Of a stretch of 64,000 bases of DNA, positions 4,909 through 39,175 are shown piece by piece. This stretch comes from Zopfochytrium polystomum (lineage: Eukaryota; Chytridiomycota; Chytridiomycetes; Chytridiales; Chytridiaceae). The translations under genes and the position numbers were made by a program. The DNA lies in NCBI GenBank assembly GCA_025765615.1, contig JAIVFJ010000015.1, forward strand, positions 62,001 through 126,000. Reading direction: 5' to 3'. Each line of letters starts with the position of its first letter. Within the stretch, counting starts at the first letter, position 1. Below the pieces are notes generated by a model. The model did not search any database, had not been told where the DNA came from, and saw nothing but the letters and a program-made list of their open reading frames with translations.

Positions 4909-5006
4909 GGTCGGTCGGTGTTATGAGGATGCAGAGATACACGAGGGAAGATGGGGGAGCTAAACTCATCAAATGCGGTTCGTACCGTACGCCCAGTCGA
5001 CCAACT

Positions 5007-7054: not shown

Positions 7055-7069
7055 GGTAAGGTTTATGAC

Positions 7070-7367: not shown

Positions 7368-7518
7368 GTGCCCTCCCTTCCCCTTTGGGCCTAATCTGCT
7401 GATTTCCCTTTGCGCGCCAGCTGCGCCTTCCACACGACAGTGTGGTCTGAGTTCTTCCGTTCCTTCTTCTTGATACTCTTTTGTCTAATATGTTCCTCAG
7501 GTTGTTTTGATCTTGTCT

Positions 7519-8571: not shown

Positions 8572-9209
8572 CTCTTCCAAGGTCTCAAGGATGTGCAGAG
8601 ACTGGGAGAGCATGTCTTGGATAGACTCATGGAGACCATCATGGTACAGCTCCATCAGAGCTGCATCATTGTATCCAGAGACTCTGGCTAGTTGCTTGAA
8701 TTGGTTGGTGTAGGCCACACAAGATTGCTTTCCTTGCTTGATATGCTTGAGCTTGGATCTTGCTGTCCAAGATGCGTAGGGGTCACCAAAGGTAGCCTCC
8801 AGCCCCTCCCAGAGCTTTTGCAGGGCGGTGGGTGTGCTTGGGAGAGATCGGTACCATGATTGAGCTTGACCAGACAGGAGGGTGCTTGTGAAAAGAACCT
8901 TGACTTGCTCACTGGGAAATCTTGAAGGTTGGAGAAGGATGACATTCTCCACAGTGGCCATAAAGTTCCTGAGGTCTTTGGCCAGCCCAGTGAACTTGTC
9001 AGGGCTGGGAACCTTGGGCTCTCTTGCTTGGTTGGCTTGGGGCAGGGGAAGAGCTTGATGTTCTTGTTGTGAAGTTGTTGTTGAAGCTGGTGCTGCTGGT
9101 GAAGGACTTGTTCTTGAAGTTGGTGTGTCTGTCTTGAAAGGGCTTGTAATTGGTCCATCAAGGCTTGGAAGGCAGTTGCATCAGGGAAGGTGTTGTTTGG
9201 GTCAGACAT
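8572..9209 (-). pseudogene. Gypsy gag, 5' part (truncated by rearrangement)
   Basis: The minus-strand frame begins 40 bp inside the 308-bp LTR with MSDPNNTFPD, a Gln-rich coiled-coil stretch (QLQEQVLHQQHQLQQQL). After a one-base frame change near 9,050 it continues into a typical Ty3 gag core with SGQAQSWYRSLPS, LWEGLEATFGDPY, YTNQFKQLARVSGY and ELYHDGLHESIQDML. It stops being gag after ETLEE, where copia reverse transcriptase begins. The expected continuation (LLLAIKIDNRLYSKR) is found at 32,752 on the plus strand, beside the matching pol. The product would be the structural capsid protein of the retrotransposon particle. Confidence 0.85.
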
Positions 9210-9249
9210 GATGGCAGAGAGCAGTAGGAGAGGGTGAAGTGAATTATGA

Positions 9250-9557
9250 TGTCAGGAACAGGGCAGGACAGGACAAGGCAGACAAGGAACTGAGAGGAGT
9301 GATGATTGTATTGGAAACAATAATTCACTTGAGGGATGGGACAGGTTCCCCATCCCCCTTTTATACCTTTTGAGAGTGTTCCTTGTCAAGACTCAAAGAA
9401 AGTTCCAGAAAGAGCAATTAGTAATACAATGATACCAATGATACCAATGACAACAAGACAAGTCAGGAAAGCAAAGAAGGTCCCAGAAGGTTCCACAAGG
9501 TTCCATGAAGGAATGTTCTAGAAGGTTCCAGAGGTTTCCAGAGGGTGATTCATAACA
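9250..9557 (-). repeat. 5' LTR of the gypsy chromovirus (308 bp)
   Basis: The minus strand reads TGTTATGAATCACC ... CTGTTCCTGACA. It is the same length as the LTR at 36,671-36,978 and I count three differences between them. It contains repeated GGAACCTTCT units and a TATAAAAG box. Immediately inside, after two bases, lies ATAATTCACTT. This 11-mer is the exact complement of LTR sequence just downstream of the TATA box and is a candidate self-priming primer-binding site. Confidence 0.9.
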
Positions 9558-9835
9558 AGATTGGCCAATCAGTTTGGGTTTTTCATCCGAGCAGGGCTTT
9601 ACGCCCTCTTCACCAGCTTATCCTTGGAGGTTCCTCTGTAAGTCTAGAAGGGCGCATGTGCAAGGGGGAGTGTTAAAATATGCCCCGCGCAATTATTCAG
9701 TAAAAACGAAGAAGAAAAAGTTGATTGCAGACCTGACTTGTCACCTGACCTCCCTCCACTGTGCTCCATCACACTCGGATTTCAACAATCAGCGCAGTGG
9801 TCGCTTTGAAATTGTATGATTTGCAAAAACTCTCG
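9558..9835 (+). repeat. Diverged copia-LTR-like relic
   Basis: The segment GTTTGGGTTTTTCATCCGAG and its surroundings match the minus strand of the LTR at 7,070-7,367, and a second patch (CTGACTTGTCAC) matches further on. Between the patches lies a polypurine tract followed by a possible LTR start (AAGGGGGAG then TGTTAAAATATG, about 9,660-9,680). It is either an indel-containing solo LTR relic or the edge of a related family. Borders are approximate. Confidence 0.4.
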
Positions 9836-9888
9836 TATGCTAATTAGAGCCATGAGACTGAAAAAATCACGGAAAGAAGCCAAAAAAA

Positions 9889-9961
9889 GCTTTGTACAGG
9901 GATCGAACCTGTGACTTTAGCGTTATTAGCACTACACTCTAACCAACTAAGTTTACAGAGC
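9889..9961 (-). tRNA. tRNA-Ile (anticodon AAU)
   Basis: The 73-nt reverse complement folds fully. Acceptor GCTCTGT pairs with ACAAAGC with one C-A mismatch. The D stem is ACT/AGT, the anticodon arm TAGTG-CTAATAA-CGCTA, and the T arm ACAGG-TTCGATC-CCTGT. Seven T on the minus strand directly after the acceptor form a Pol III terminator. The A box is weak (A at position 10 where G is usual). It could be a decaying copy, but structure and terminator favour a gene. Confidence 0.75.
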
Positions 9962-10238
9962 TTTTATTCGACTTGCAGTATTATAAGTATCTTATAAGTA
10001 TTTGGCAAGCAGAGGTCACACGTGGGATCCCTGTCCTGAAAATTGGAATGGCATGAACCAGCACTGGTGCAGTGTCAGTATTTCTGTGTGAGAGGCCGTT
10101 TCAAGTGGAAAAGGTGGAAATCTTTATCGGGGAAGAAATTATTTGATTGGCTGAAAACTTAATGGAGGAAACATTTTCCGCTATTTCCTTGCCAGAGCTA
10201 ATCTTGCTCTATTTCGTTAATTGAGCTAAATCAGACAA

Positions 10239-11481
10239 ATGAACTTGCCCGTGTTCGCAGCAGTTGTCTCATCGTCCTTGTCCGCCGCGCTCGCTGGGTA
10301 TGCATCAGCAGTTGCAGCAGTCTCCGATGGACGCTCCCACCCACCAGAGAGAACGCGAAAGTGGAGCAGTCGTATATCACAGTGGCTGGAGGTTGAGAAT
10401 GACACTTCGTTTGACAATGGCTGGTACTTTGATATGTTCCGTTGCACTCGCAGATCATTCGATCAGATTGCCAGCTGCATCGAAAACAACTGGTTAAGAA
10501 CCCACGGATGGCTGCCTGCGATTAACTCAGTTTTTGACATGCGAGCCAGGACAGCAGTCACTATGCACTACCTCTGCCACTCCCTTGTTGAATCAGCGAC
10601 AGCCTTCGAGACAAGCAAGCCTTCAGCTTCGCGATATGTATGGGAGGTTGTTGAGGTCATCGAAGCATCGTTCGACCAGATTGCCCTTCCCAAGACAGCA
10701 GAGAAGTGGCAAGCGGAGCGGGAGGGCTTCGAAGCGATCTGCGGCTTCCCAAACACCTATCTTGCAATAGACGGGTCGCTGTTCGAAATCGAACGCCCCC
10801 ATGTAAGTTGAGTACAACTGGTTTTTGTTTGCCAGTTCCCGCTGTTGTCTAATAATTGCACCAACGCAGGATTTTGAAGGGTGGTACTGTCGGAAAGGGT
10901 ATCCCGCCTTCAATGTTCAGCTTGTGGTGGACCATCGCAAGTGCATACGCGACTATGACATCAGAGCTGGATCAGCAAACGACAAGCAGATCTTTAACAA
11001 CTCGAAGTTTGGTAAAACAATCCACAACCTCCTTCCTCGTAATGGGCACATCGTAGCTGATGCTGGCTATGCATTGATGCACCACGTTATGACCCCGTAC
11101 CCAATTGAGGATTCCATGCCGCGAGACAGACGTTGCTATAACTACTTACATTCTCGAACACGGATTACTGTTGAGGGCACCATTGGGATCCTTAAGGGGC
11201 GTTTCCGAATCTTTCAGCAGCCGTTGAATCAGCACTGTCGTCTTGATCACGCTAAAGTGGAGATTTCTGCTGTGGAGTCGATGGCCAGACTGATGAAAGT
11301 GTGCTTCCAGTTGCATAACGTCCTTATCGATCTCAAAGACGAAGCCCCAATCGTATCTTTTGTTGATGATGCAAACACGGACAATGAGGACGAGCAAGTG
11401 CGGGAAGAGGAGGTTGTTGTTGGTGATGCTGCTGTTCGAAAGAGGGACACCATAAAAGCATATTTGGCCGCAATGCAATAA
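10239..11481 (+). CDS. Harbinger transposase (DDE_Tnp_4 family)
   Basis: Two exons, 10239-10802 and 10870-11481, are joined at GTAAGT...CGCAG in phase 0, giving 391 residues. The N-terminal third is helical. The catalytic triad is visible: Asp in AIDGSLFEI, Asp in HIVADAGYALM, and Glu in VEGTIGILKGRFRIF. The surrounding blocks GWYCRKGYPAFNVQLVVDH and AGSANDKQIF are typical of PIF/Harbinger nucleases. The C-terminus is acidic (DNEDEQVREEEVVV). The enzyme cuts and pastes the element in the nucleus, usually needing the Myb-like partner encoded convergently 10 bp downstream. No disabling mutation was seen, so it may be active or recently so. Confidence 0.9.
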
Positions 11482-11490
11482 ACTGCTTTA

Positions 11491-12584
11491 TTACTGTTTC
11501 AACTCTCGCACAGCTTGAAGGAACACCTGTCCAAGGCGATCTAGCGACTGGTCCTGCCTTGTCGCCAGATCTGCCAATGCTTTATCTTGCCGATCAGCCA
11601 GCTCCTTCATGGCTTCAGTAAGCCCAGCTTTCGTGATCCCACCATCTCCACTCAACGCAGCCCCTCGAATCGCATCACCCAGATACTCCATCCCGTTCTG
11701 AATACCTTTGCCAATGGTACTCAACGCTGATGGCAGGTCTTGCTTTTCTTGCTTGAGAGTTGGGGGAACACGGTGCGATGAGCCAGCTGAAGTGGAACTC
11801 GACGATGAGCTCAAACTGGGAGTGGGTGCAGGCCCTGTCCGTGGACGCTTGGATGAACTGCTATCGGGGTCATCTTCAGTCTCGCCAGAGACTGTGTCAG
11901 CCTCTTCCACCGTGTTGGCATCCTCAAGCTCGAGATGGGCAAAGATTTGATTGTCCAGCTCTGCGGCATGAGTACTGGGATCCGCCACGCCCAAGCGGGT
12001 GCCAGGAGTTCCAAATGATTCACCCGAAAGCCCCTTCCGTCCACCGAAGTAGTGTACCATGGTGTTCCAATATGACGGCGGATGAAGCCTCTTCTTGTTG
12101 CCTGTTTCAAGGAAAGACACACTCAAAGAACCATATTGCTTCTTCAAGGCGCTAAACTTTCCTTTGATCTGTCATCGTGCAAACTCAGTTAAATGGTAAT
12201 TAAGATCTGACTGCGTCATACCTGAGACTCTGAATAAAGAACGCCGCTCTGAGCATTAAACTCCAAGATCACCTTATTCCACGTCGCGATTATCCCATTC
12301 TTGTCGGTGGAGTCCAGGAACCCATCGCGATGAGTTTCGAGGCGACTTTTGAGAAGAATTTCCACCTTACCATCATCCCAGTCTGCCTCGTCGAAACCTC
12401 CTTTTGGGACCTCCTCTGCAGACTTTTTCGGCGGTCGTCCCCTCTTTTTCTTTGGTGGAGCGTCCAAGGTTCCGATTTCGGCTCCCTTTTTCGGGGTCTT
12501 GGCTGGATGAGTGGTAGCGTTCCTTGTTGGTGCTAGGAGGATTGGGGTCACTGAGGGCGGCGCGGATTCTGGGTTGACTGACAT
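11491..12584 (-). CDS. Harbinger Myb/SANT-like DNA-binding partner
   Basis: Exons 12584-12222 and 12168-11491 (CAG|GTATGA ... GACAG|ATC, phase 0) give 346 residues. An AT-hook-like KKKRGRPPKK precedes a Myb/SANT-like module that spans the intron: WDDGKVEILLKSRLE, IIATWNKVILEFN, then IKGKFSALKKQYGS. An acidic Ser-rich linker, a basic patch (SSKRPRTGP) and a C-terminal amphipathic helix with repeated DRQDKALADLATRQDQS follow. In Harbinger elements this protein binds terminal repeats and imports the transposase; that role is inferred from family and position. An earlier methionine at 12662 exists, but the chosen start (MSVNPESAPPS) gives a cleaner N-terminus. Confidence 0.8.
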
Positions 12585-12933
12585 GGCGTTTCCTAAATGA
12601 AAAAGGTGCAAAACAGCACTGACCAGCTTGGAACAACAATTTCCCAGTTTGCTCAAAATCATTTTGCGCCTTTTCCACTTGAAACTGCCAGTTTGTCTTT
12701 CTCGTTGAATGAGATCGCTTCTGCCAGATGGAACACAATGCAGTGTGGAAATGCTGGGTCCCTATTCGCCAAAAGCGCAATTTAATTTCTATCCAAGTGG
12801 AAGAATGGGGATAGTTCTGTTGGTAAGAAAAAATTAAACAAAGTCAGGAACTCCGATGGTCCGCCTCTTGTGAAGTGGGTCTAGTAAAAGAAAATGAACA
12901 GAGTTGAATACTACAAGAAACTGTGATTAATAT

Positions 12934-13128
12934 TCACTCGTCGTCCTCAACCCCCTCCCCGTCGACCTTATCCTCGTGGACCGCCTCCGACTCGTCCACT
13001 GCCTCCTCATCCGCGGCCTCGTCGTCCTCAAACTCGTCCGCCTCGACAGCGCCAAACTCCTCCTCGTCAACTGCCTCTTCGTCGTTGTTCGCTGTCGAGT
13101 ACGTATCGGCAGAGTCGGTGTCGGACAT
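12934..13128 (-). CDS. Small acidic protein or terminal exon, uncertain
   Basis: An open frame of about 64 codons starts MSDTDSADTYST and is almost entirely Asp/Glu/Ala/Val. It lies directly downstream of the secreted-protein gene on the same strand. No usable AG acceptor links the two in frame, so it is either an independent micro-protein, an exon joined in a way I could not find, or a chance GC-rich frame. Confidence 0.25.
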   Translation of the reverse strand: MSDTDSADTYSTANNDEEAVDEEEFGAVEADEFEDDEAADEEAVDESEAVHEDKVDGEGVEDDE

Positions 13129-13258
13129 GGCGGCGTTATTTTCGGAGAGGCCCAAGGGGAAGATGCGACGAGGGGCGGAAAAAGAGGGTTGTCAGGCCAG
13201 AAGATCAGTTCACCAAGCTACGCAGAACGGGCAAATCGTAGCTTCGGGCTGACAAAAG

Positions 13259-13786
13259 CTAGAAAATCTTACCGTCAGGACCGCCGCCGCCGCCGTTGCC
13301 CTTGGGGGACCCTCGAGCTTTTCTGCCGCGATTCCCGTTCGGGATGTAAGGCGAGCCGACCTTCATCATGAAGGGCATTCCCGGTATGGATGACGGGTCC
13401 TTCATCTTGGCCTTGCCGTACTCTTTGGCCTTGGCGACTAATTTGCGCTTCGTTTCACCAAAGTTGGGTATCTTCGGCATCTTGAGGCCACCGATCGGAC
13501 CGGATACTTTGGGGGGCTTGGCGTCGCCGACGCCGCTGCCGGCTGAGGAAAGGGTAGGGGGAAGGGGCGAAATCTTTGAACATTGCTTGTTCACGAACAA
13601 TGTTCTGCGTCATTATACGCGACAGGCAGAGAGCTCACCACGTCGGGTCAACTCGACCGGGGCCTTGGCGCCGAGAGTGGAAGCATACTCTTCGCCAGAA
13701 GTTACGACAGCTTGGGGCGTTGGTGCGGCGACGGCGACGGTGCCGACGGTCGCAACGATGACGGCGAGGAGGGAGATAACTCGCAT
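13259..13786 (-). CDS. Small secreted protein, unrecognised
   Basis: Exon 1 (13786-13639) encodes a textbook signal peptide, MRVISLLAVIVATVGTVAVA, with cleavage after AAPTP or nearby. The phase-1 intron GTGAGC...CTCAG joins exon 2 (13542-13259), which encodes a basic Gly/Pro/Lys-rich chain with KMPKIPNFGETKRKLVAKAKE, SPYIPNGNRGRKARG and a Gly run before the stop, about 143 residues in all. No cysteines, enzyme motif or membrane span appear in the mature part. A secreted matrix or effector-like protein is possible, but there is no direct evidence. A GT at 13272 could begin a further intron, but no in-frame acceptor was found. Confidence 0.5.
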
Positions 13787-14457
13787 GGATTGTCGAGTGG
13801 ATGACTTGGGGGATCGCAATAAAAGGAACGCCACGGAGAGTTGGGGGTGGGTATTGTGTTGCTTTTTTCGTCGCTCTCTGTTGGAGGGGGAGGTTTGATT
13901 TTGGTTTTTATCTCAGCATGTTGGAATTTGAATCGGGGCTGAGCGCCCTTGCGACGCGTCCGATGTCTCACGGCCAAATCTGCTGACGCGGTGTTCTCAG
14001 CCCGCGTGCGCGCGCGGAGGACTGCGATTGTCTGCACTCGATCGTGCCGGCGAATGGCGGAAACGGGCGGCAAGCAAGAAGTGCTGCTGTGAGCAAACCA
14101 ACAAAAAAAGCAAAGACGCACACACACACACACAAAACCATCTGTTGCATCGGGCGGATGCACCACCCGTTGGAAAAAAAACTTCACGTATTTGGAAAAC
14201 GAGAACAAAAGAAGAGAAAAAAAAGAAAAGAAAAGATAAGAAAAGAAAAGAAAAGATAAGAAAAGAAAAGAATTTCTCCAAACGAAACCCAGTTTATGGC
14301 GTTACGAGGCGGTCACCAACTCGGAAGAAGTGTCGCCGATGTCAGTTCCATCCTCCCCCAATTCTCTTGCTCTCTCCTCGTTTGGAGGTTCTATGCCGAC
14401 ATCGCGCCGCCGCCCTGACTCCAGCATCGGTCAGGCCGTTGCCTCGGGATCTTAGCT
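13787..14457. other. Intergenic with AAAGA-type simple repeat
   Basis: This is the likely promoter side of the secreted-protein gene. It contains a (CA)-rich patch near 14,119-14,135 and a (AAAAG)n purine tract at about 14,214-14,272. No gene was seen. Confidence 0.6.
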
Positions 14458-14916
14458 TTAGTTAGTGGCAGCAAGGACGACAATCGCGTTCAAAGATGTG
14501 AAGACGACGATCAGCATTTTCCAATCTAGTGACGAGGAGAAGCCGAAATCAACCACAGCCATGAGAGCGCTGAGCTGGGAGATCTCGACGGGTTGGAATG
14601 TGGGTGGCGCACCGTCGTCGTTGTGGTCTGCAGGACGGTCGCCTATCTCCGTCGGTGGGTTCTCAAACAGGAAGCAGTCCAGGGTAAGGTGGCGTGCGTG
14701 CTGGCCGTAGGCAGCAGTGAGGGCAGCGATGGCGTCGGCATCCTCGGGTATGTTTGAGAAGCGGATGCCGCGGAAGACGGTGAGTGCCAAGATCGCGCGG
14801 TTGGCCGACGTCGCACTTAGGGCGACTCGGTCGCTGGCGTGCGGAAGGTAGTCCGATGTGAGGGTCCGCAGCACATCGACCGGAAGTGCATGTAAGCCGC
14901 GCGGAGCGGGTATCAA
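14458..14916 (-). CDS. F-box-like protein, short
   Basis: The N-terminus (LHALPVDVLRTLTSDYL...ASDRVALSATSANRAIL) fits the F-box helix pattern: Leu-Pro start, Asp-x-Leu, a central LS.TS.R block. F-box proteins recruit substrates to SCF ubiquitin ligases through Skp1. The following ~100 residues contain HARHLTLDCF, which could be the start of Leu-rich repeats, and end at a stop after IVVLAATN. At 152 residues it is short for the family, and a 3' exon or a truncation is possible. A stop follows near 14458 without an obvious donor. Assignment is from the F-box pattern only. Confidence 0.5.
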   Translation of the reverse strand: MIPAPRGLHALPVDVLRTLTSDYLPHASDRVALSATSANRAILALTVFRGIRFSNIPEDADAIAALTAAYGQHARHLTLDCFLFENPPTEIGDRPADHNDDGAPPTFQPVEISQLSALMAVVDFGFSSSLDWKMLIVVFTSLNAIVVLAATN

Positions 14917-16141
14917 GGGTTAACGCTGGGAGTGGAAGGTCTCTGATCCAGATCTAGCCACGAATCAAAAACAAGCAAGCGATCACCCACACCAACGTCA
15001 AGTCGGAGCTGTTTTTTTGAAGTCGCACTTGCAACAGACATGTACTACTCCACATCGCCGCCATCTCGAAATATTGGTGGTGGAAGGAAGGAAGGAAGGA
15101 AGGAAGTCGGAGTTTAAAGAAAGTACCCTCAAGATATTTTGTTGCTCAGAACGGCGGCCATGGGTGGGACAAAACCAAGAAAAGGAGTCTTCGGAGGAGA
15201 ACTTCAGAGGACCATCTGTCGGCCCGAGTAAACTGCCAGTCTCGTCTTCCTGTCCGTTGCACCAGGGTTTTCTCAACATATTTTCTTTTTCGGTGACTAA
15301 CGGACACTGCCCAACTGCCTAGGGATGGGGTGCCTGACAGGCCATACCCCAAGCCCGCCTAATTTATTATTTATTTTCGGCACTTGTACATACGTGCATA
15401 GGGTTGGGGTGTTGGTGGCTGCGCCCGGTGCAGCCCCCGACAGCTGAGAGTTCGATCTACAAGTGCCTGCCTCAGTCCTATTGCTGTGAGGGTGAGATGT
15501 GTGAGTACAAGTGCGATGCAATAAAGCCCGTTGGTCGAGTGATCGTGCCGACACAGCCCGGCGGGGTGTGTGTACGATTGCAGGTGTTTCCGCGTGCGAG
15601 GTCCCTGCTGGCGACCTTCTGACCCCTACATAGTTGACTTCCTTCTCTCTCTCCCCCCCCGTCACTGGCAACGATGAGGGCTCCCGCAGCACCGTCCGCA
15701 ACAAGGGGCGCTAGGTTGCGCCCTCTCCGTCCTGTCGCTGTGAACCGCTCCTGTTGTATTTGAGATTAGGTTCCTGAGATAAAAACCCCCGTTTCCCTCC
15801 TCTCTCTTTATTCTGCAGTTGTGTTGCGCCCTCAGGAGTGTCCTCCCGTTTCCCCTTGCATCGGCCCACGGCCACGCGAGTAATCGGTGCTCCAGCACTG
15901 ATGCTTCAGAGGATTGTCCCTCTGAATGTTCATTCTTTGTGTTTGAGACCCCTGTTAGACAGATCAGTAGGACACTTCATGGACTAGGCAAGTAGTAGGG
16001 TTGAAACACCCCCCAGACAACAGCCCAATAAAGTTAGTTTTAGCCTATTATTTGCTTTCCCTCACTCTAGGGCCTAGATCCCAGGGTCAAAGGAGTGAGT
16101 ATAGTCTCACAGAAGAGTCTGTCTGTTTGGCTATAAGTTAA
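14917..16141. other. Intergenic, about 1.2 kb
   Basis: It contains a (GGAA)n tract near 15,084-15,107 and C-rich patches. A TG...CA-bounded stretch from about 15,326 to 15,630 with an internal AATAAA could be a solo LTR, but I could not find matching target duplications or another copy. No coding gene was recognised. Confidence 0.4.
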
Positions 16142-16304
16142 GGATTTTGCTAATTGTCGCCCTCAACCACTAAGTGGTCATGTCGCCCTCATTCCCCCAC
16201 ATCCTCTGTTGTTTGTCTCTTTTTTTCGCCTGATCCTTTTTTGCTTTTTGTCGTTTTCTTCTTTTTCAATGTTCCTTTCCTTCCATTGCCAGAGCAGACA
16301 AAAC
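16142..16304 (+). repeat. Left terminal inverted repeat of the MULE
   Basis: Inverted match to 24,661-24,830, including the internal palindrome-like ACCACTAAGTGGTCAT. An open frame starting MEPTTDEGGDVDAVGDCDLD at 16,327, just inside, is acidic and may be the remains of the transposon's own leader or first exon. Confidence 0.8.
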
Positions 16305-16555
16305 AAAAACCTCTGTCTGTGTCCGGATGGAACCCACCACTGATGAGGGCGGCGATGTTGATGCTGTTGGTGACTGTGACTTGGATTTGGACGAGAGTGA
16401 CAGCTACGGCAGCGATGACTTCGACAACAGCAAGGGCGATGGGAATGCTGGGGATAAGGATAACAAAAAAAACCTTGTCAAGAGACACTCAAGACTGCAC
16501 CCTCCACCACCACCACCCTCCACCACCTTGCCACTGCCCTCCACCGCCTTCCCAC

Positions 16556-16970
16556 TGCCAGATCGACGTCAGATCAACGTCAGATTGTTGTCAGATCGTC
16601 AGATCATCTTCAGATCGACTTCAGATTGACTCCAGAACCATCCACCGCCTTGCCACTGCCAGATTGATGTCAGATCTTCATCAGATCGTCAGATCATCGT
16701 CAAGTCAATGTCAGATTGACTCCAGATCGTCAGATTGACATCAGATCATCAGATTGATGTCAGATCATCATCAGGTCAATGTCAGATTTTTGTCAGATTG
16801 TCTCCAGGTCATCAGATCATCGTCAGATTGTTGCCAGATTGACTCCAGATCATCACCAGAACGCCTGATTGTCGTTAGATTGCCAGATCATCATCCAATT
16901 GTCGTCAGATTTTCTTCCGATCGTCAGATCATTGTCAGATTGACTCCAGATTGCTGCCAGATTGCCTCCA
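16556..16970 (+). repeat. CAGAT-type minisatellite in the LINE 5' region
   Basis: Dozens of imperfect copies of a 9-20 bp unit built from TCAGATCGTCAGATCATC and TCAGATTGACTCCAGATC are present. A similar but GC-richer array lies at 37,136-37,300 and 37,390-37,560 in the second LINE copy. In frame it would encode SDRQI/DCCQID peptides, but it is more likely a 5' regulatory array of the element. Confidence 0.85.
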
Positions 16971-17213
16971 GCAATCGCTGTCCTCGCCCCCCAAACCAGA
17001 CTGCATCACCCCCTTCACCACCACAACCACATTGCAACCACATCACAACCTTTGTGCTGAATTGGGATTGGAACCCCCCTATTTCACGAGCGGCCCACCT
17101 CCCTCTGTGTTCTTCGGCACCCACGCTGATCAACACATATTGACAATCACCACTCAGCCAGACCCCACTAATGCCCCACTCACTGAACTTGACATCCTAC
17201 GCTTCACCTCCAC

Positions 17214-17837
17214 TTGCAACCTCACCATCCGACAGCGGCCCTTGCTCTCAAAGGACCAGACTTCTTACTCGCTCCGCCTTCTGCATCAACAGCCAGACAG
17301 CACAAGGCCCCCCCTGACACCGCAACTCCCCCACCTGTCCCCCCTGCCCCCCCTTCTGTCCCTCCTCCAGAGCTGCAGTCAATTTTGAAGATCCTTGAAA
17401 ACATCCAGCAGCGGCTTCACGCACAACAGACCTCCTTGCACACAGAGCTGAAAGAGCATCAGACCTCAGTACGCACTGACATCCAAAAACTCACCACTCA
17501 GCTTACCCAACTTGAGCCAATCCCTGCAGCACTGGAACACGGCTTAGCAAAGGTGGACCACAACATTCAGAGACTCGCAGTTGCTGCAGCCAACGTGGAT
17601 ACTTCACTCAAAAACCATGCTGGCGCCATCCACAACCTAAATCAGCGAGTCACCACACTGGTGCCACTCACTGCACAATTGGACAGCTGCCTCACCGCAG
17701 TGGACACGACCACCCAGCTCCTCAGCTCTCGCCTCTGGACAATTGAAGAATGGTTGAAATACAATGACCCGATTGATGAGGACCTTGACGACTGTTCCTC
17801 CGCTGAACCTTCTTCTACTACTACTGTCCCAGCTTGA
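17214..17837 (+). CDS. LINE ORF1 protein (coiled-coil, nucleic-acid-binding type)
   Basis: The frame has 207 codons. A Pro-rich N-terminus (PPPVPPAPPSVPPPELQ) is followed by a long amphipathic heptad region from about residue 55 to 180 (LENIQQRLHAQQTSLHTELK, VDHNIQRLAVAAANVDTSLK, LWTIEEWLKYND). It ends in an acidic Ser/Thr tail. ORF1 proteins of non-LTR elements trimerise through such coiled coils and coat the RNA. No CCHC knuckle or RRM is visible. The true start may lie upstream, because the 16,951-17,388 frame also contains related Pro-rich sequence and an indel may separate them. Confidence 0.6.
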   Translation: MQPHHPTAALALKGPDFLLAPPSASTARQHKAPPDTATPPPVPPAPPSVPPPELQSILKILENIQQRLHAQQTSLHTELKEHQTSVRTDIQKLTTQLTQLEPIPAALEHGLAKVDHNIQRLAVAAANVDTSLKNHAGAIHNLNQRVTTLVPLTAQLDSCLTAVDTTTQLLSSRLWTIEEWLKYNDPIDEDLDDCSSAEPSSTTTVPA

Positions 17838-18078
17838 TCAGCTGTCACCACACACTCAAGCTCCAGTTCCTCTTCAACTCCTCCCAACAGAACTGCCCCC
17901 AAACCTGCCCCCAAACCTGCTGCCAAACCTGCCCCAAAAACTGCCTCAAAAACCAGGACCACTGCCTCAACTTGACCAATATCCTCATTCATTCTTTGTG
18001 AAAGCCCTTTGCTATTGATATCACTCTAAAAAAATTAGAGACATTATTAGCAGGACTTCCTGCACCCCTTAGGCAACT

Positions 18079-21000
18079 ATGTCAACTAGCCCTGTGTCTA
18101 GCACACCACCCCCAACACCACCACCCCTCCTTCGCTTTGCGACTTGGAACATCTGTTGTGCCTTCCCCACCAAGGCTGCATCTATCTTCCACTGGCTCGA
18201 TCACACCAAAACCACCATCCTTGCCATTCAAGAAACTGGCTGCTCTGACACAGAGGCCACCCACTCCATTTGTCACATCACTAGGAATTACAAAGGTTTC
18301 TTCATATCCTTCACCCCCTCCCGTCACGCTGGCGTTGGTTTCATCATTTCATCTTCCCTGGCACCACACATCACTGACATCTCCCACTTTGGAACTCGTG
18401 CCATTGCCCTCACCTTATCTTTTGCTCGATGCTCCATCCTCCGCGAAATATTTACTGGCCTGCTGACCCCCAATCTGAGGAACTCCCTGACTTGCAAAAA
18501 TGGTGCAACTCTCTTTCCTCATCTGACTCCACCTCACCCCACCAAGCCTACTGGTTTGGTGACTGGAATGCCATCACTGACCCCCTTGACCACTCCACCA
18601 GAGCCCCCACACCTACTTCCCGCCACAGGTTCCTCCTCACCCTCTCCCTGAAAGGCTTTGTTGATTCCTTTCGACACCTGCACCCAGACTTACCCTCTTA
18701 CACACACACTGCTGGCTCCTACTCCTCTCGTTTGGACAGCATTTGGCTCTCACCACCTGCTCTTGACTACGTCACTGAAGCTAACATTTCTTCTCCACTT
18801 GAAGAGCCCCATCTCACTAACACCTCCGCTTCAACATAATTCTTGCTTCCTCCCCCTTCCACACTTTTCCCTTCTCCCCTCTGCGCCAGCAGGTCATCAA
18901 ACCCATGGAAGCTTCAGAAGAGCAACTCGACAATAATACATCAGCCATCTCAGTTGAGCTTGCCCCTCTCAGAAGCCCTTGCAGCCTTGGACAGCATTCT
19001 TCTCCCCTCTGAGCTTGAGTTCCTCCATTCTCCATCCCTACCCTGTCAATACCCCTCCCCAGAACGTGCATCACTCCTCATCAGCCACCTTGACACACTC
19101 TCCACATCATTTCACGAGTTGCTGCTTGGGCTTGGCAAAAAGTTCCTTCCTCACAAGGGAACCTCCTCAGTAGCGCCAAAGATAGATTGCCGTGCCAAAC
19201 CATTCCTTGTTGCAAGTTGGAAAGTAGAGAAGCTGTGGGCACTTGCCAAAGACCCTGTGCATGATCTGGCTAACATCTTCCCTTCCATTCCTTTGACCCC
19301 ATCTGAGTGGGGCGCAGATCAGTCTTACTCCTTCTTGTCCCACATCCACTCTCAGTACAAAGCCCGCTTCTTTGACACAACTGACTATCGTGATGTTTTA
19401 CTTCCCGCCCTCAACTGCCATCGCCAGGCCATCTACTGTGCCCAATGCCAGGCAGCAGAAAAGCACAAAATGGAGGACATTGCCACAGCTCTCACACATA
19501 GACACGGCCTTTTCTCTTCTGGCAAGATAAAGACTGTCCTCAACAACATCCTCAAACACCACCTTTCGACACCTAGGCAACTACTCCACAGCAGACAGTA
19601 TGAGCTCAGCAGCAGCATGGCAGCAAATCCTTTCCACCACCACCAATTTCCTCGACATTATCAAACCCAAAAAGATGGGTGACAAAATTGCTTCTTACCT
19701 CATCCGTAACATTCTCCTCCCACGTGTCCGCTTTCTGTGGAAAACTGCCATTCTCCTCCATACTTTCCTCAACAACCTCACCACACTCTGTCTCAAAACT
19801 TTCAAACGCCTAGTTGGCTACTGCACCTCTTTTCCCAATGCCCTCCTCCATCACCCCATGACCCATAACTTCCCTGACTTTTACAATGAATACTGCTGTG
19901 ACATGATTGTTGACCTCAACTCTCGCTTGAACTCCCCCTCTCTCGTTGGCCACATAAGCCGTATCATGATGCACCGCCTCCAACTTGACCTGGCCTCTGG
20001 AACTCCAGTTTTCTCACATCCCTTACCCTTGTCCCAGCCAAAAAAACACTTCACCAAGTCTCTCATTCCCCTCCTTTTTAACCAACACACATCCTTCCAA
20101 TACTCTGGTCCACCCCTATTTTCTGTTCATGCTCACTCCATCAACTCATTAGTTCCTTGGCATATTTTTCTCAAAGTGCTTCCCACTCTCCGTTCACACT
20201 CTGTCTTCTTTTTTGAACAACTTTTGACCTCCACCTCACCAGTCCTTCCTACAAAGACAGCTCTCTCCCTGACAAACTCTGTGAAGTGTACCACATCATT
20301 AAGACCTTTATTTTTGCTGATCCCACCTTTGGCTCTCCCATCTTTTACCACAGCCCTCCTGATGGTCCTCTTTACAATCCCTTTTACCCATCTTCTTTGG
20401 ATCCACTTCACCATCCCCCCCTTGCTCGTGGCAGTTTTTTTCTGTCTGATGACCCCACCACAAGTGGAATTCTTCCGCATTGTTAACTGGACTCACACAC
20501 TCCCAAACCCCCAACTCCTTTCTCATCACTATCCAGGCTCCCTGAATGCCTTCACCCTTCCTCCCACAATTTCCACTTGGTCCAATGCCTTGGCTGCCCC
20601 ATTGGCTCACCCCCATTCTCTTACCCCTGCAGCAAGCACATCTCTCCCTACAATCCAACTTCCCTTGCACACTCCACCTACAGTCCCCATCAGCAGCCGC
20701 ACAACTGACTGCAACTCGACCCTCCCAGCCCATTTTCTTTGTTAACTCGCCTTCCCCAACCACCGTTTTCACACCCACACCTTTCCCACGCCTCACCTCC
20801 CGCCACTCCCCTTTCAATCCAGCTCCCTTCATGAATCCCTGCTTTCAACCAATGGACGTGCCCCTCCTCCCTGCTGACCTTGCTCATACCCACCCATCCT
20901 TGACCTTTGAAACTGATGGCTCCCTTCGCAAGGAGGGCTTCATGGCTGGCTCTGCTATTTGCCTTGAGCTTAACTTTGAATTTTCCTTTGCCCTCCCTCC

Positions 21001-22130
21001 ACTCACTGCCACTTCCACAACTGCTGAAATTGCTGCTCTCCTTGCTGCCCTCACCATCACTGCAAAGCTTTCCCTGCCCCTCACTTTCCGACTTGACAAT
21101 CTTGGAGTGGTTCACACCTTTGAGAAACTCTTTCCCTCTAACTGCTTTAGTTCCCATCCGCACAGCAAGCTCAACACACCCCCTCTCTCTGATTCCCTCC
21201 ATCATCTTTTGCACACCACTTCCCACCCCACCCTTTGGGCAATGCGTTGCAGCCATTCTACAGTCTTGGATTGGCCCCCCTCCACAAGTTTCCTGGGTTT
21301 GTGGACACAACGGCGACGCTGGCAACGAACGAGCAGACAAGCTGGCATCATCTGTACCCTCGACTTCTGACCCAACTTTGTTACCAATCCTCTCACAACA
21401 GATCCTCCCAGCCACCGCCTTCATCTCAAATACCCCGGTCTTTGGCCAACTTCGACGACAACTGCGACTCCTCACAGGTTTTTCTCACCATTTTGCACTT
21501 CTGAACACCTCAGCCTTTGCCCACATCACCCACAACCCTGACCTGGTTCATTGGGAAGCCACATTTCTTGCTCTCCACTCTGGAATTAAACCCTCTTTCC
21601 TCTTTGGCACCCTCCCTGGCTCTGCTCGTCACAAGTATCGACTTCAAATCCTCAGCAACACTTTGTCCACCCAAAAAGTTCTACACCAACGACACCCTCA
21701 AGTCTACCCTGATGGGCTCTGTCGTCGATGCCACCATGCTCTGGAAACCACAGAGCATGTCTGGCAATGCCCTGCAGCTGCTGACGCCATTGCCATGATT
21801 TGCAACACCCTTGCTGAAACTCTTTCCTCCTCTGTTCCTCCTGCACCTCATGGTCGCTCTCCTCCCCAAGCTCATCCCATTTACTGGCTCTCCCACCCTG
21901 AATTTCTCTTTGATCATCAATCTTGTATCAATTTTTCCTCCCTCCTTCGTGGCTTCATCCCTCAATCCATTTATGACTCCCTATTCTCACTTGATAACCC
22001 TGCTGCCTCTGTCCTTAAAACCCTTGTCACCGCTTTCCATCAGCTCCTTCTTGATGCCCATCAACTTATTTGGATCCCCTGTTGCGACGACACTATCTCT
22101 TGGAGAAGTCAAGTCCATCAAGCCCTCTGA
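18079..22130 (+). pseudogene. LINE ORF2: AP-endonuclease, (deleted) RT, RNase H, zinc motif
   Basis: The endonuclease starts at RFATWNICCAFP, with the LAIQETG glutamate and GVGFIISSS, then shifts frame near 18,465 into YWFGDWNAITDP and SSRLDSIWLSPP. The final SDH is degenerate. From 18.84 to 19.68 kb is linker and fingers-side sequence. The palm with the YxDD motif is absent, and at 19.6 kb the frame resumes in the thumb/connection (KKMGDKIASYLIRNILLPRV). RNase H follows with FETDGSLRKEG, TAEIAALLAAL, FRLDNLGVVHT and, in another frame, VCGHNGDAGNERADKLASS. A CRRC....TEHVWQC motif is near the C-terminus. At least three frame changes and the missing palm make it dead. Confidence 0.85.
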
Positions 22131-22959
22131 CAAGCACTCCAAGCCCCGCAGATCCCCTCCACCAAATTCCCAGGCCTCTCACCCTCATTCTGCAGCCCCT
22201 CACCCACTGTCTTCTCCAAACATCAACTCTTCCCTCCCTCCCACTCCATCATCCCACAGAACTCGTAACAGCTCTTCACAACCCTCTCAACCTTGCTGCA
22301 CCACGTGTAGTCGCCAGCACTCCACTGACACTTGCCCAGGCATCTGGCTTTTGCGCACCAAGGCTTCTTCCAGATGGATTGACCACTACCTCGGCCACAT
22401 AAAACTTGTTGCAGGCATTGTCTGGCTTCACCACACAATACAACTCCCCTCACGCCAACAAGCAAGAGCCACTCGTCACCCATCTCCTGCTGAGCCCCCT
22501 GACGTTCACTGAGCCACTGTTGCCCTTCTCAATCTTGACATGGGCTGTACCCTAATCTGACTTATCCCAACCCTCCGACTTTTCACAGCTGCTCCCCTCT
22601 CTTACACTGACCTCCTTCAGACCCACTTCGCTATTTTCTTGATTCTGTGTTTTCCCCTTCTCCTTTGATCATTGTGGCTTTATGTGCGTTGGAGATGCCT
22701 GACAACCATGTAAGTCCGTAGCACATGGGGTGGGTTTGCTGAGGTGATACCTGGACGTAGTCCATTATGGTTCACCGTTGATGGCTCTTTCTCTTCCCAC
22801 CAGCCCCTCTGGGGCTGGAACAATAAATAAAAAAAAAAATAAAAATAGAGCTCCTGATCTGGGGGAGCGGAGGTTGATTGCTGCTGGCACACAGGGCCAG
22901 CAGCAACTCGCAGTCAAGGGATGTGGAAGTTGACTGTGACATCCAGCCCATACCTGCCC

Positions 22960-24584
22960 ACCAGAGAGCTTTCAATCGCTTGCCGCAGCAAGAAGGCTCA
23001 CCCCAGAGATGCTGACATATTTCAACAGCCTGCACAATGCTGGCCTTTCCGCACAATCCATCATGCAGGCCCATCGATCGAAGTTTCCAGAAATGCTGGC
23101 CATCCCAGAAGGATATAGCAAACATGAGCCAAAAGCGACGCTGGGATCGACTGGAAAATGGATCATCGACTGAGGCATTGCTGGATAAGCTTGACACAGA
23201 GGGATACCACAATCGATATGTGCTCGAAGCGAAAGGTGCTCACAGCGTGAACCGAAAGCTGCAGGCACTGTTTTTTGCTCCCCCAAACGGAATCAATGAG
23301 ATTTGCAAACAACCAACCGTTCTTTTGATGGACTGTACCTAAAAGACCAATCAGTTTCGTCTTCCACTCTTGAACATTGTGACAGTTTCTGAAAATAACA
23401 GGACAGTCAACGTGGCTTCGCGTTTTTGTCAAAGGAGGAAACAGCTGACTATTTGTGGGCACTCCAGTGCCTCAGAGAACTACTTGTACGCGACCCAAAT
23501 GTGATCGTCACAGATCGCGAGCTGGCCCTGATGCGCGCGATTGACATCGTTTTCCCGACAACTGCAAACATTCTGTGCATTTGGCACATCAACAAAAACG
23601 TCCTTGCCAAGCTCAAAACCGTGCTCACCGGGGCTGGAAGTTCAGAGATCATCAAAAAGGTGATGCAAGATTGGCAGCGACTGGTTGGAAGTTCAACGGA
23701 GGGCTTATATCACGAAGGGAAGCGGCAATTCTTGGAAGCTCTTCAAAATACAAACTGCCCTGCAGCGTTGAACGAATACTTTGACGGTTGGCTGCAGCAC
23801 AAGGAAAGCTTTGTCGCTGCCTGGGTCGATTCTTACCTTCACCTGGGTCACAAGGCCACTTCTCGAGTTGAGGGAAATCACAACGTCGTGAAGAACTCCA
23901 TCAAGGTGTCAACAAAAGATCTGCTTGGCGCATTTGATGGCATTCACCATGCAATCAAGGATCAATAGCACCATGAAGCCTGGCATCGATCGAGGTCGCT
24001 GAGTCGAAAAGTAACAAAGCATGACGTACCTTTTCTCTGGCCAGGAATCAGTGTTGTATCCCTTTACGCCCTCAACAAACTACTTGAGCAGTTAAATCAA
24101 GTCAGCAGCATTAGTGACAATGAACAGTGCTCAGGTCGCTTTACCACAACATTTGGATTGCCATGCAAACACTAGATCGCAGGTTCTTTGAGAGCTGGCC
24201 AAACGCTGAATGTTGCAAGCCTGGATGCGCACTGGCTAATCAAGATCCAGGACAGCCAGCAATCACTCCAAACTACTGACGCTGTTGTGAACAATCTCAC
24301 TGAGATAATCCAAAAGGCACCAACATTGACAGCAGCAAATGACAGCGCCTGTTGGATCAAGTGAATGAGATTATTAATGGATCTGTGCAGCAGTACATTG
24401 TGGAGCCAGCTGCAGCTGCCGCCCATGGGCGGCCAACAGCAGCCCAGAAGCGAAGACTACCTTCTAATTCCACCAGGTGCAATCCTTGTTGATTCGAGAT
24501 CGTGGATGCACAAGAGCAGCAACGCAAGTGCGGTTGATGCCATCAGTATGGGCACAACCGACGAACCTGCACAGCAGACGTGAA
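22960..24584 (+). pseudogene. MULE transposase (FAR1/Mutator-like)
   Basis: Fragments in several frames line up as one transposase. The N-terminal helical part has NAGLSAQSIMQAHRSKFPEM. The first catalytic Asp is in TVLLMDCT, followed at once by a TAA stop (23,339-23,341) where Tyr is expected before KTNQFRLPLLNIV. Next is a 180-residue clean frame (23,426-23,968) with DYLWALQCLRELL, VIVTDRELALMRAID and ILCIWHINKNVLAKLK. A SWIM-like FTTTFGLPCKH and a terminal knuckle CHQYGHNRRTC follow, each separated by stops. Such enzymes cut and paste MULEs. This one is inactive. Confidence 0.8.
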
Positions 24585-24660
24585 CTAGACTTGGGTGGAG
24601 ATGGGCGAAGCCGCAGCGTCGACAGCCTTGGGATGGGTGAAGCGGCGGCCTCGGCAGCTG

Positions 24661-24830
24661 TTTTGTCTGCTCTGGCAATGGAAGGAAAGGAACATTGAAA
24701 AGGAAGAAAAATCCAACAAGCAAAAAAGGATCAGGCGAAAAAAAGGAGACAAACAACAGAGGATGTGGGGGAATAATGAATGAGGGCAACATGACCACTT
24801 AGTGGTTGAGGGCGACAATTAGCAAAATCC
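24661..24830 (-). repeat. Right terminal inverted repeat of the MULE
   Basis: Reverse complement of the left terminus at 16,142-16,304, differing by a handful of substitutions and homopolymer-length changes. Confidence 0.8.
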
Positions 24831-25839: not shown

Positions 25840-26205
25840 TTGACCAACCAATTGTTCTCGATGTCCTCTGAGTGGCGCTGCTTTCCATGCAACTGCGAGT
25901 TCGAATACAAAAGCATACTGGACTGGCACTTACGCACTCAAAAGCACCAAGTTAGTACGTCTCTTTTCGGCGAGTTGGAGAATGCAGATCACTTGGCTGG
26001 GCCTTCAAATGACAGGCGATCAGACAGCTGCGCTTGGGATTTCCCTCCACGGGGTGGAACGAGCGATCCATGTGTTGGTGCCAGTGAAGGTGATGTTGCC
26101 TCAGCACCAGACAATTGCAGTGGCAACAAGCAGTATTTTTCGGGAAGTCAATCATTCCATTCGGAGTCGGACTCCCGGAGCAAGATGTCAGAATTGGATG
26201 AGTAG
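25840..26205 (+). CDS. C2H2 zinc-finger N-terminal fragment, probably transposon-derived
   Basis: A 121-codon frame with one C2H2 finger near the start (WRCFPCNCEFEYKSILDWHLRTQKH; Cys-x2-Cys, then His-x5-His), followed by an acidic, Ser-rich linker and a stop. The next plus-strand fragments downstream look like the continuation of a decayed DNA-transposon protein. A lone N-terminal finger followed by a long linker is typical of some fungal Plavaka/KDZ transposases, but I cannot confirm that family. It could instead be a degenerate host gene. Confidence 0.35.
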   Translation: MTNQLFSMSSEWRCFPCNCEFEYKSILDWHLRTQKHQVSTSLFGELENADHLAGPSNDRRSDSCAWDFPPRGGTSDPCVGASEGDVASAPDNCSGNKQYFSGSQSFHSESDSRSKMSELDE

Positions 26206-26353
26206 CTGGGGCCTTTAGACCCATCAGATGAAAGTGAATATGATGAAATTGATTTCGTAATGCACAGCAGCCCAGAGCCAAATACGGAAAATCAAGACCA
26301 ATCTGGTCCGTCAATGTGCGTGCCCCAATCTAACTGCTAACCTTGCCATAACA

Positions 26354-28932: not shown

Positions 28933-28969
28933 TCAAGGGACAAGCGTCAGCAAGGGCAAGCGTGGGCAG

Positions 28970-29200
28970 CCAGGTTGCAGTTGCAGACCACGCTGACGCG
29001 GAGGAGGCGGCGCAGGTGGTGCAGGTCGGCGGTGCAGGGCAGTGGCGCGATGGCTGGAAGGGCTGAGCCAAGTTGGAACCCAGTGTGGTAGGGCAATGGT
29101 GGGCAGATGGGTCGTGGTTGCAGATCGTGCTGAAGCGGTGGCACCGAAGCGCGCGACAGCTGGAAGGGCCGAGCCAAGTTGGAACCCAGTGTGGTACGAC
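28970..29200. repeat. Two-copy tandem duplication (about 108-bp period)
   Basis: GCTGGAAGGGC(T/C)GAGCCA followed by AGTTGGAACCCAGTGTGGTA occurs at about 29,051 and again at about 29,159, with related GTTGCAGA(C/T)C(A/G)(C/T)GCTGA sequence before each. The second copy leads into the 5' flank of the copia element. It may be part of a 5' LTR or leader, but no match to the 7.07-kb LTR was seen. Confidence 0.7.
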
Positions 29201-29612
29201 TTTTTTGCTCGTTTTTTCAATGTTTCTACTTTTTTTTCACCTCCCACTAATTGGGTTGTCTTTTTCTCTCTGATTGCCGTCAAAAAAACGATTCTTCGTG
29301 GGCTACTTGAGGGGTCTGGGAGAGCTCTCCAGAGCAAGAAGAGACCAGCTGAGCGACTGATCGAGCGAGCGATACTCCATCAAGGAATTGAACCAAAGCC
29401 GTCCACTGCTTCAAGAAAGCAATCAATCAAGCAAACCCAACCTGAAATCGTGACAAACGACTCACGACAAGAGCGAGTTGAACCGACCATCCATCGATCA
29501 CCACCACCGATCAAACAATCACCTTCACCAGTTAGCTAAACAGCCACTGTCCCCTCACCCACTGATCACGAGATGTATTTCTCTCGAAAACGAACCTTTG
29601 CCCTGACACAAT

Positions 29613-32600
29613 ATGAGTGTCAAACCAGTCCACCAGGCTCTCAATAACCTTATCTACTTTGACACATGGTACGAAGACGTACTTGGCTACCTTGCTGGCA
29701 AGGATGCACTTGCTACTGTGAGCCTTCAAGCAGCACAACATGCCAGCGCCGCTGTTGGCACAGCCGCCAGAGCTGGAGTTGGAGCTGCTGGAGGTGGTGC
29801 TGACGGAGGTGGTGCTGATGCAGCTGCTGCTGCTGGAGCCGCTGCTGGAGCTGGCCCAGCTGCCACTGGTGCAGGATTCGTCAACTGGACAGCTGCAGCA
29901 CCCCGTGATCAGATGTCATGCATATCCTCCCAGTGCATGTACCCAACCACCCACAGCATGTCAGCTACTGGACCTTCAGTGACGACAGAACTGTCTTTCC
30001 TGCAACCTACGCAGAAAACAAGCCGGCCATGATGCACATTTGGAATCATGTTGGCGAAAACCTCAAGCAAAAGATTAGCGGCATCCACTTTGTCTTCAAG
30101 GCCCTTGCCGAACTCAAGTGTAAAGTCGGCTGTGTCAACCCTGCACAGATTATGAACCTTATTGACAAGTTCAAGAAACTTTGAGAAAGAAAGAATCACG
30201 GACTTCCAACAGAAATTTGAGACACACTATGCATCCCTACAGCAAGCACAGGAACTCACTCCAATCGACATGCGTGACCAGATTGACATAACCCTAAGTT
30301 TTTGTTCTGCTGTCCATGTACTAAACCAAAGTTTCAAGAACAACAAATACTGGTTTCCCCAAGTCAACCACTATATGGGCAAGATTGATGATGGCACCAT
30401 CACAGACATCACGAGTCTGTTTGACTACCTGAAGATTATGGAGGCCTGCAACCGCGATCCTGAAGATTTTGTGGAGCCACCTGCCGACCCAGCGAACAAG
30501 GCAGCCTTACTCAGTGGTCCCCAAGGTCGAAGGAATGATGGCCACTCCTGACGGGCAGACAGGTCAGAGCAGCGCCATGCTTGCTTTGACTCTCGTGAGA
30601 AGCTACGCAGCAACCATCAGGAGAGGCCTCATAAGGAACAACCTGACTGAGGTGGTTGTCAGTACCAGGAGGAGTCTGAGCGTCGCCGCAGCCAGAGAGA
30701 GAGGAACAGCAACAACAACCCACCTGCAGCATCAGCAACTGTGGACCAACAGCAACGAGATGCTTCAGTAGTTGACAGTGTTGTCGTCTGTCACCAGTGT
30801 GGCCTCAAGAACCACTATGCCAGAGACTGCCTTGCAAAGAAAGCAGATGCTCCAGTTGCCCTTGTTGCAGCCCTGGACGCCTCGCAGTCTCTCAGCGAGT
30901 ATGAGACTGAGTCTGACTACAGTGATTCAGGGGAGTCAAATTTTCAGTATGCCCGAGGCTTCCACCTCAGGCGCACCAAAAGAGAACCTCTAAGAGAGAC
31001 GGGAAGTTCTTTGCCTCTATGGATGTGGATAAACCTGGCACCATATTCAACAGAAGCGATAGAACTCCCGTTGGTTGTTGCACTAAACGTCTAGGGCTCC
31101 ACTTCCTCGTCACCAAGAATTTTGAGACTTCACTGTCTCAGCCATACCTCTGCCACCATCATCGCCCTTGTCCACTGCAAACACTTCCCAAGCTCAGACA
31201 GGCAATTACCTGTCGTGAGCAAGGCCGAGAGACTCCAGATTGCAGAGGTTGAAAGACTTCATCGCGCCCTGGGACACATTGGCTTCCAGCGCCTTGGCTA
31301 TATGCTCCACCACCAGACGACAGCAGACCTACTGCCCATTGATGCTTCACACCCCACAAAGTGCCAAACTTGTGTCACTGCCAAGATGTGCCAAAAGCCA
31401 TTCCCAGAGCATGATGAGGAAGAACTCCCATTTGCCCACACCCTCAATGTCGATGTCAACTCCATCCCCATTACTTCCTTTGATGGTTACAACTACGCAA
31501 TCACTGTCGTTTGCGAGAGCAGCTGTTTCTCTTGGGACATTCCTATTGCTTGCAAGAGCGATGCATTACTGTTTCTAATTTGCCTGCTTCTCTTTCTTGA
31601 GAAAACAGAGGGACTCAAAGTACAGGCCATCCAATTGGATTGTGGCAAGGAGAGCTTCAATCGGATCTTCAAGTCCTTCTGCGACTCCCATGGAATTCAG
31701 CTCAAAGGCGTCTCCTTCAAGCACAGCCCAGATGAACTCTGTTGCAGAACGCCACATCCAAACCGTCACGGACATGACCTGGTCACTTCTACTTGGCGCA
31801 CCTAATGTTCCACTCACATTTTGGAGCTACGCTTATTGTCAAGCTTCGCAAATCAAGAACTGTCTACCAAACATCCAATGTGGCATAGTTTCTGGGCCCA
31901 GTGATCTGGAGAATTTGCCCAGGTCCAGCGCAGAGGCTCATCAGCAGGCAGGTCGGGATGGTGAGGGCCCTGCGTCGCCAGACGTCTTGAGTTCTCTATC
32001 CGCAAGGAGTATTGACAGGCCCAGTGGTGAAGTGGACCCTGCTGCATCAGGTGAAGTGCTACCCGCTGACAGCGCCTGTTGTGCAAGATGTGCTGTTTGC
32101 GTGTGAGCCTGACGAGGACTTAGATGATAACGATATCCAGCCAGTCTATGAGTCTGATTCTGACGATGAAGACAGACTCCTTTACGCCCTCAACGTCAAC
32201 TCCAACTCAATCAAAGTATCCCCAGACACATACAAGGATCCACTGAAGCGCAAGGAAGCCATGGCATCGCCTCATGCAGAGCAGTGGAGGAGGCTGGTGA
32301 TATGCTTCGCAAGATGGGAGTCTTTGTGGAGTCAGCAGCTCCTCCTGACACCAACATCGTCAGCTGCAAGTGGGTCTACAAGCTTAAGTTAAAACTTGAT
32401 GGCACCATTTGAGCGGTTCAGTGCTCGACTCATTGCTTGTGGATTCACCCAGCAGCCTGGCGTTGACTTCACCCTCACCTACTCACCAGTTATTAGAGGC
32501 AACACACTTCGTGTGATGATTGCCCTCAGCACCCTGTACGGCTTGGACATGGAGAAGATCTACATCTCCTCAGCCTACCTGTATGGGATCCTAGACATAC

Positions 32601-32751
32601 CGATCTACATGGCACCACCACCTGGCGTATTGATTTCCCCAGGACTAGTGTGGCTACTACTGAAGGGTCTCTATGGGCTGAGGCAATCAGGACAGATCGG
32701 CGCCTAGCCCTCCACCTTCGGTCAAAAGGCTTTGCTCAGAGCTGGGCAGAC
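29613..32751 (+). pseudogene. Copia gag-pol, 5' part (to mid reverse transcriptase)
   Basis: Successive frames in copia order. The gag-like start is MSVKPVHQALNNLIYFDTWY, with an Ala/Gly-rich linker and DYLKIMEACN helical region. A CHQCGLKNHYARDC zinc knuckle sits at about 30.79 kb. The pre-integrase domain has LHRALGHIGFQRLGY and CQTCVTAKMC. The integrase core has LNVDVNSIPI, QLDCGKES and NSVAERHIQTVTDM. The reverse-transcriptase start has SCKWVYKLKL, ACGFTQQPGVDFTLTYSPV and LKGLYGLRQSG, then HLRSKGFAQSWAD. A protease D-T/S-G motif was not found. Many stops and frameshifts are present. At 32,751/32,752 it changes abruptly to gypsy gag. The matching 3' half lies inverted at 7.5-8.57 kb. Confidence 0.85.
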
Positions 32752-39163: not shown

Positions 39164-39175
39164 TTTGTCCAAAAA

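Follow-up and report, generated by a model that had tools for sequence, protein, structure and literature searches.

Organisation of the locus

We analysed a stretch of 64,000 bp (hereafter the window) on contig C15 (566,993 bp) of the assembly of Zopfochytrium polystomum, a fungus of the Chytridiales whose assembly comprises 761 contigs and 80.16 Mb. The window, which contains no N and no gaps, holds an old copia retrotransposon (copia-1) and a gypsy retrotransposon, each present in two parts: one part of each element lies at an end of an interval of 24,185 bp (positions 8570-32754), and the other part lies just outside the opposite end. At both ends of this interval, copia sequence is joined directly to gypsy sequence (Table 1). 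It is very likely that the interval is a real inversion, a kind of rearrangement that is already known and ordinary. An earlier note on this DNA, made from the sequence alone, had proposed two reciprocal copia/gypsy joints bounding a 24-kb inversion, and this is confirmed by the points at which homology ends and by the contiguity of both elements in other genomic copies.

Table 1. Features in and around the interval 8570-32754 (window coordinates; LTR, long terminal repeat; ORF, open reading frame).
Feature	Position	Strand	Description
copia-1 3' part	7070-8569	-	End of reverse transcriptase region to end of partly deleted 3' LTR; outside the interval
Left joint	8569-8570		Minus-strand reading gypsy GAGTA[C]TGCCTC copia; base 8569, C, fits both elements
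gypsy 5' part	8570-9557	-	5' LTR 9250-9557 and first part of gag; left end of the interval; outer flank AATCT
copia-2	9558-9787	+	3' remnant of a second, diverged copia, LTR 9671-9787; hosts the gypsy 5' LTR; end set by eye
tRNA-Ile (AAT)	9887-9962	-	Inside the interval
DNA transposon	10094-12688	+	DDE_Tnp_4 transposase, Pfam PF13359 (Harbinger in the earlier note); inside the interval
Host-gene stretch	12823-14950		Full length once in the genome; paralog of ~89-90% on contig C20 over 12823-14272
MULE-type element with LINE-like insertion	16142-24830		Matching terminal inverted repeats; Pfam MULE
copia-1 5' part	29319-32754	+	Degenerate, two internal deletions, without 5' LTR; right end of the interval
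Right joint	32754-32755		copia CCCC/TTCTCC gypsy; one gypsy A missing
gypsy 3' part	32755-36978	+	Rest of gag, pol ORF 32951-36670, 3' LTR 36671-36978; outside the interval; outer flank CTTTA

Two reciprocal joints

The joints were mapped by searching pieces around each of them against the organism's own genome and taking the point where homology to other copies stops; counts from these own-genome searches refer to the 40 candidates scored per search. At the left joint, copia homology stops at 8569, the same base at which gypsy homology begins, and at the right joint copia homology extends to 32754 and gypsy homology starts at 32755. Thus, the joints fall at 8569/8570 and 32754/32755, 2-3 bp away from the positions first assigned to them (8571/8572 and 32751/32752). 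Neither joint was found at any other scored place in the genome: for the left one, 39 of the 40 scored places (out of 754 candidates) contained the gypsy part only, and the same was true of 39 of the 40 scored places (out of 769 candidates) for the right one.

Reciprocity was assessed by placing each half of each element separately on other genomic copies. The two copia halves adjoin without a break in all 19 fetched copies (L050-L068; 40 of 108 candidates scored), in which the reverse transcriptase is continuous through CCCC/TGCC, i.e. ...GGCAGACCCC / TGCCTCTTC.... The gypsy gag is continuous in other copies through GAGTACATTCTC, i.e. ...GGAAGAGTAC-A-TTCTCCTTGCC..., and the two gypsy halves are contiguous except for this one A, which is present in 25/25 aligned rows representing 24 distinct copies (26 loci, with L018 dropped as too short, and L003 and L019 being one copy). 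Flipping the interval therefore restores both interrupted sequences bar one base. When the shared C is counted once, the net loss is 0 bases for copia and 1 base (the A) for gypsy, in line with the earlier estimate of at most a base or two gained or lost.

Microhomology amounts to 1 bp at the left joint and 0 bp at the right joint. Around the breaks, compared over ~2 and 3 kb, similarity between copia and gypsy is at chance level (best E 0.22), and the longest words shared within 15 bp of the breaks measure 4 (direct) and 6 (inverted), where the random means are 4.6 and 4.5. No inverted duplications flank the segment beyond, at most, the single shared C. As copia and gypsy resemble each other there no more than by chance, the data do not support homologous recombination as the origin of the joints. 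The earlier preference for end joining over homologous recombination, argued from the lack of long homology, agrees with these values.

The copia element

Copia-1 belongs to Ty1/copia, with the integrase before the reverse transcriptase and a reverse transcriptase of RVT_2 type. The ORF of another copia copy that spans the joint matches Pfam RVT_2 (E = 2.1e-43), placing the joint inside this domain, and the window copia itself gives only sub-threshold rve and gag_pre-integrs matches, upstream of the RVT_2 region. Copia-1 is an old, broken copy. Its 3' LTR ends at 7070 and has lost a part at 7133/7134; relative to other copies, ~309 bp are missing at 30993 and ~890 bp at 31886; and at 29319, where the 5' LTR is expected, it adjoins another repeat. 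The claim that flipping the interval would yield an uninterrupted copia reverse transcriptase thus holds for contiguity across the joint and fails for the copy itself, which is degenerate.

The two halves of copia-1 carry similar numbers of private substitutions: 23 over 699 bp in one half and 27 over 600 bp in the other (p = 0.31). Among the 19 other copies, values on the 3' side range from 0 to 9 in 17, with 99 and 237 in two that end soon after the joint, and those on the 5' side range from 0 to 11. The private load, similar in both halves and unusually high, is what one old copy split by a break would show. Halves drawn from distinct copia subfamilies, named in the earlier note as a finding that would speak against an inversion, were not shown.

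The copia-1 3' LTR ends (7070) with a tRNA-Leu gene (6974-7054) 16 bp away, and the copia-2 LTR ends (9787) ~100 bp from the tRNA-Ile gene; a tRNA-side insertion preference is possible. A continuation of copia-2 past the gypsy insertion was not found after the gypsy 3' LTR. Gypsy insertion into copia is seen elsewhere in the genome, in a copia copy on contig C335 (L096), which a gypsy LTR interrupts close to the 5' end.

The gypsy element

The right part of the second element contains gag, protease, reverse transcriptase, RNase H, integrase and chromodomain in the order of Ty3/gypsy. Its pol ORF is open over 1239 aa (Pfam order Asp_protease_2, RVT_1, RT_RNaseH, Integrase_H2C2, rve, Chromo), and the gag ORF of another gypsy copy matches Retrotrans_gag, with the joint falling ~20 codons past the domain. 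The two LTRs are both 308 bp long, a length shared by 7 of 29 other LTR rows, with 305 identities and 3 differences. The family is very abundant, with 2,109 exact LTR starts in the genome. LTR lengths within it step by ~45 bp (308, 353, 398), and among copies L002-L028 at least two pol types ~17% apart share LTR and gag within ~2%.

Several observations weigh against one tidy gypsy insertion cut once. The outer flanks of the two LTRs, AATCT and CTTTA, form no matching target duplication. By comparison, 14 other copies were tried, of which 8 were readable (in the other 6 the fetched stretch was without an LTR end), and a perfect 5-bp duplication was found in 7 of these 8 and none in one (L026/L100). 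One of the three LTR differences falls on a site that is variable in the family (C in 17 and G in 12 of 29 rows). Private changes are unevenly distributed: the 680 bp to the left of the joint carry 6 and the 1500 bp compared on the right carry 2 (p = 0.014), or 7 and 2 when the same comparison set is used (p = 0.005); the right-hand figure covers the first 1500 of 4224 bp, pol beyond having been searched as a whole (best other copy 4304 of 4358 bits). As to the inversion itself, the stretch of C20 paralogous to the inner block spans neither breakpoint and so supplies no un-inverted chromosome for comparison.

The imbalance in private changes is a weak proof of a gypsy chimera, as indicated by the control copy L013, which has a perfect target duplication and shows the same pattern (5 vs 0, p = 0.003). 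Gypsy copies form a patchwork of recombined copies. The nearest relatives of the two parts differ, the closest in gag (L004, L003 and L005) belonging to another pol type, but in such a patchwork nearest relatives would differ along the element whether one or two elements, or one or two subfamilies, are involved.

Because the outer flanks share no target duplication, the gypsy element is probably, on the evidence of its flanks, the product of recombination between two insertions. The earlier expectation that flipping would give a gypsy with gag, pol and both 308-bp LTRs thus stands as to layout, but probably not as to a single insertion. If the LTRs come from two insertions, one further recombination must be added to the simple inversion; the simplest reading is a recombination of two gypsy insertions with loss of the intervening DNA, either earlier or later than the inversion itself. 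If the exchange took place a few hundred bases past the joint, the flank mismatch is accounted for and the break still falls in a single element. Traces of a lost partner were not seen: CTTTA directly before an LTR start has 0 exact matches in the genome (~2 expected by chance from the 2,109 starts), and the other arrangement sought, an LTR end with AATCT and then the copia sequence expected to follow, was approached at three places, with 3 mismatches each, none resembling it.

Content of the interval and its neighbourhood

Between 7071 and 39604, transposons and repeats make up 24,635 of 32,534 bp (76%; some boundaries by eye), and two random breaks within this region would both fall inside a transposon or repeat ~57% of the time. 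With roughly three quarters of these 32.5 kb of this nature, breaks inside transposons are unsurprising.

The tRNA gene that had been announced within the interval is present as tRNA-Ile (AAT). The DDE_Tnp_4 transposon next to it has no counterpart in the C20 paralog (L070), which is otherwise collinear with window positions 9805-14568 and represents, in effect, an empty site. The adjoining 284 bp of C20, past the position that matches 9805, have no counterpart in the window, and none of the places listed in a search with positions 39165-45371 was on C20. The assembly contains a single full-length copy each of the host sequence on the left (5000-7060) and of the host block inside the interval (12850-14950), and thus no un-inverted allele.

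The insertion within the MULE-type element is called LINE-like solely from its sequence features and an RNase_H match below threshold. No 9-bp target duplication was visible by eye around the MULE-type element, despite well-matched terminal inverted repeats. To the right of the gypsy element, another LINE-like insertion (~37024-39163), bounded by the 16-bp repeat TTTGTCCAAAAAGGCA (37008-37023 and 39164-39179), splits a tRNA-like repeat, and the stretch 39165-39604 is found in at least 17 other places at 91-95% over most of its length. Paralogous frizzled-like receptor genes (Fz domain; ~900-3804 and 42000-45371) lie in the same orientation on either side of the transposon nest.

Origin of the rearrangement

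We conclude with high confidence that the interval was inverted after two double-strand breaks, one in copia and one in gypsy, the segment being flipped and rejoined by non-homologous end joining with a net loss of 1 base. One break would have occurred in the reverse transcriptase region of the old copia copy and the other, at a distance of 24 kb, in the gag of a gypsy copy; the segment between them would then have been turned round and rejoined at blunt or nearly blunt ends. Both breaks were presumably rejoined in one event, with classical end joining and its repair proteins as the probable agent, and the order with unbroken elements is taken to be ancestral. The unmatched target duplications suggest that unequal recombination between two gypsy copies was a separate step, before or after the inversion.

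An assembly error, by which a 24-kb piece was placed backwards, deserves attention as the interval is bounded by high-copy repeats, where assemblies often fail. However, misassembly at repeats falls within shared sequence, whereas both joints here lie between unrelated sequences; they are complementary to one base, in a window free of gaps. We regard such an error as very improbable.

Even less credible is ectopic homologous recombination between inverted transposons, which would have made the inversion and left the present joints as secondary features. The unmatched target duplications of gypsy are, according to the part of PMC3355041 that deals with them, the mark of an exchange between two copies, but the copia and gypsy sequences that meet at the joints share no homology, and a gypsy-gypsy exchange would yield two whole chimeric gypsies, not copia/gypsy joints. 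Two opposite chimeric copies of one element with exchanged target duplications, which an inversion of this type requires, are not seen here. As an event of its own, ectopic recombination may explain the flank mismatch, but it would not explain the inversion.

It is equally hard to credit that the gypsy parts derive from separate elements, with the joints formed in two independent events. The unmatched flanks, the differing LTR site, the unequal private changes and the gag relatives of another pol type all point that way. Nevertheless, both elements would need to have broken twice at the same base by chance, nearest relatives vary along the element anyway in a patchwork family, the well-duplicated copy L013 displays the same imbalance, and the mismatch can be put down to an exchange a few hundred bases past the joint, with one element kept at the break. 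For an inversion made by a transposase there is no evidence, as both joints fall within coding regions of LTR elements, away from the ends of the DNA transposons; an inversion from staggered breaks would require inverted duplications flanking the segment, which are lacking.

A broader hypothesis, which we hold to be rather unlikely, extends the inversion by end joining: the young and very abundant gypsy family would be break-prone, and the locus would record two successive rearrangements through one copy, namely an exchange between two gypsy insertions, from which the unmatched flanks result, followed or preceded by the precise gag break that gave the inversion. If true, serial rearrangement could be at work throughout a genome with more than 2,000 gypsy LTR starts in 80 Mb.

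Significance and comparison with known inversions

The 24-kb inversion leaves the understanding of how inversions arise unchanged. It provides a clean chytrid example of nearly lossless end joining. To resolve an inversion to the base, a relative with the un-inverted order is usually needed; in this case the cut transposons, of which the genome has many other copies, served as their own reference, and similar events could be sought in single genomes by the same logic. It also calls for caution, as near-identical LTRs alone are no proof of a single insertion. A narrow open-access search for reports of inversion breakpoints in chytrids matched only another fungal group, which is not proof of absence.

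In the portions of PMC6861252 and PMC3355041 that describe simple "cut-and-paste" inversions by non-homologous end joining, the likeness is close: two breaks, wrong-way joining, no homology and minimal loss. Compared with the inversions reviewed there, both breaks here lie inside retrotransposons and the event was read from one genome. The staggered-break inversions of Drosophila, as presented in the same sections, differ in having inverted duplications at their ends, of which there are none here.

Breaks inside transposons are likewise a feature of the human transposable element-mediated rearrangements of non-homologous type (TEMR-NHE), for which the relevant part of PMC9675761 gives a median microhomology of 1 bp, to be compared with the 1 and 0 bp observed here. 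There, both elements are of one type (Alu or LINE-1), whereas an unrelated copia and gypsy are involved in Z. polystomum. A human-chimpanzee inversion, in the account given in an excerpt of PMC2603318, resembles ours in that breaks were proposed in two retrotransposons, with a reversed segment and repair without inverted-repeat recombination; it involved two same-orientation L1 copies of one family, in contrast to the different families found here.

Among fungi, the section of PMC4210507 on Leptosphaeria maculans reports 30 inversions of 1.3-355 kb (median 9.5 kb), 70% of them bordered by transposons, and thus provides examples of similar size and context. Those inversions came from a species comparison, whereas the joints described here were resolved to the base from the cut transposons, without a relative.

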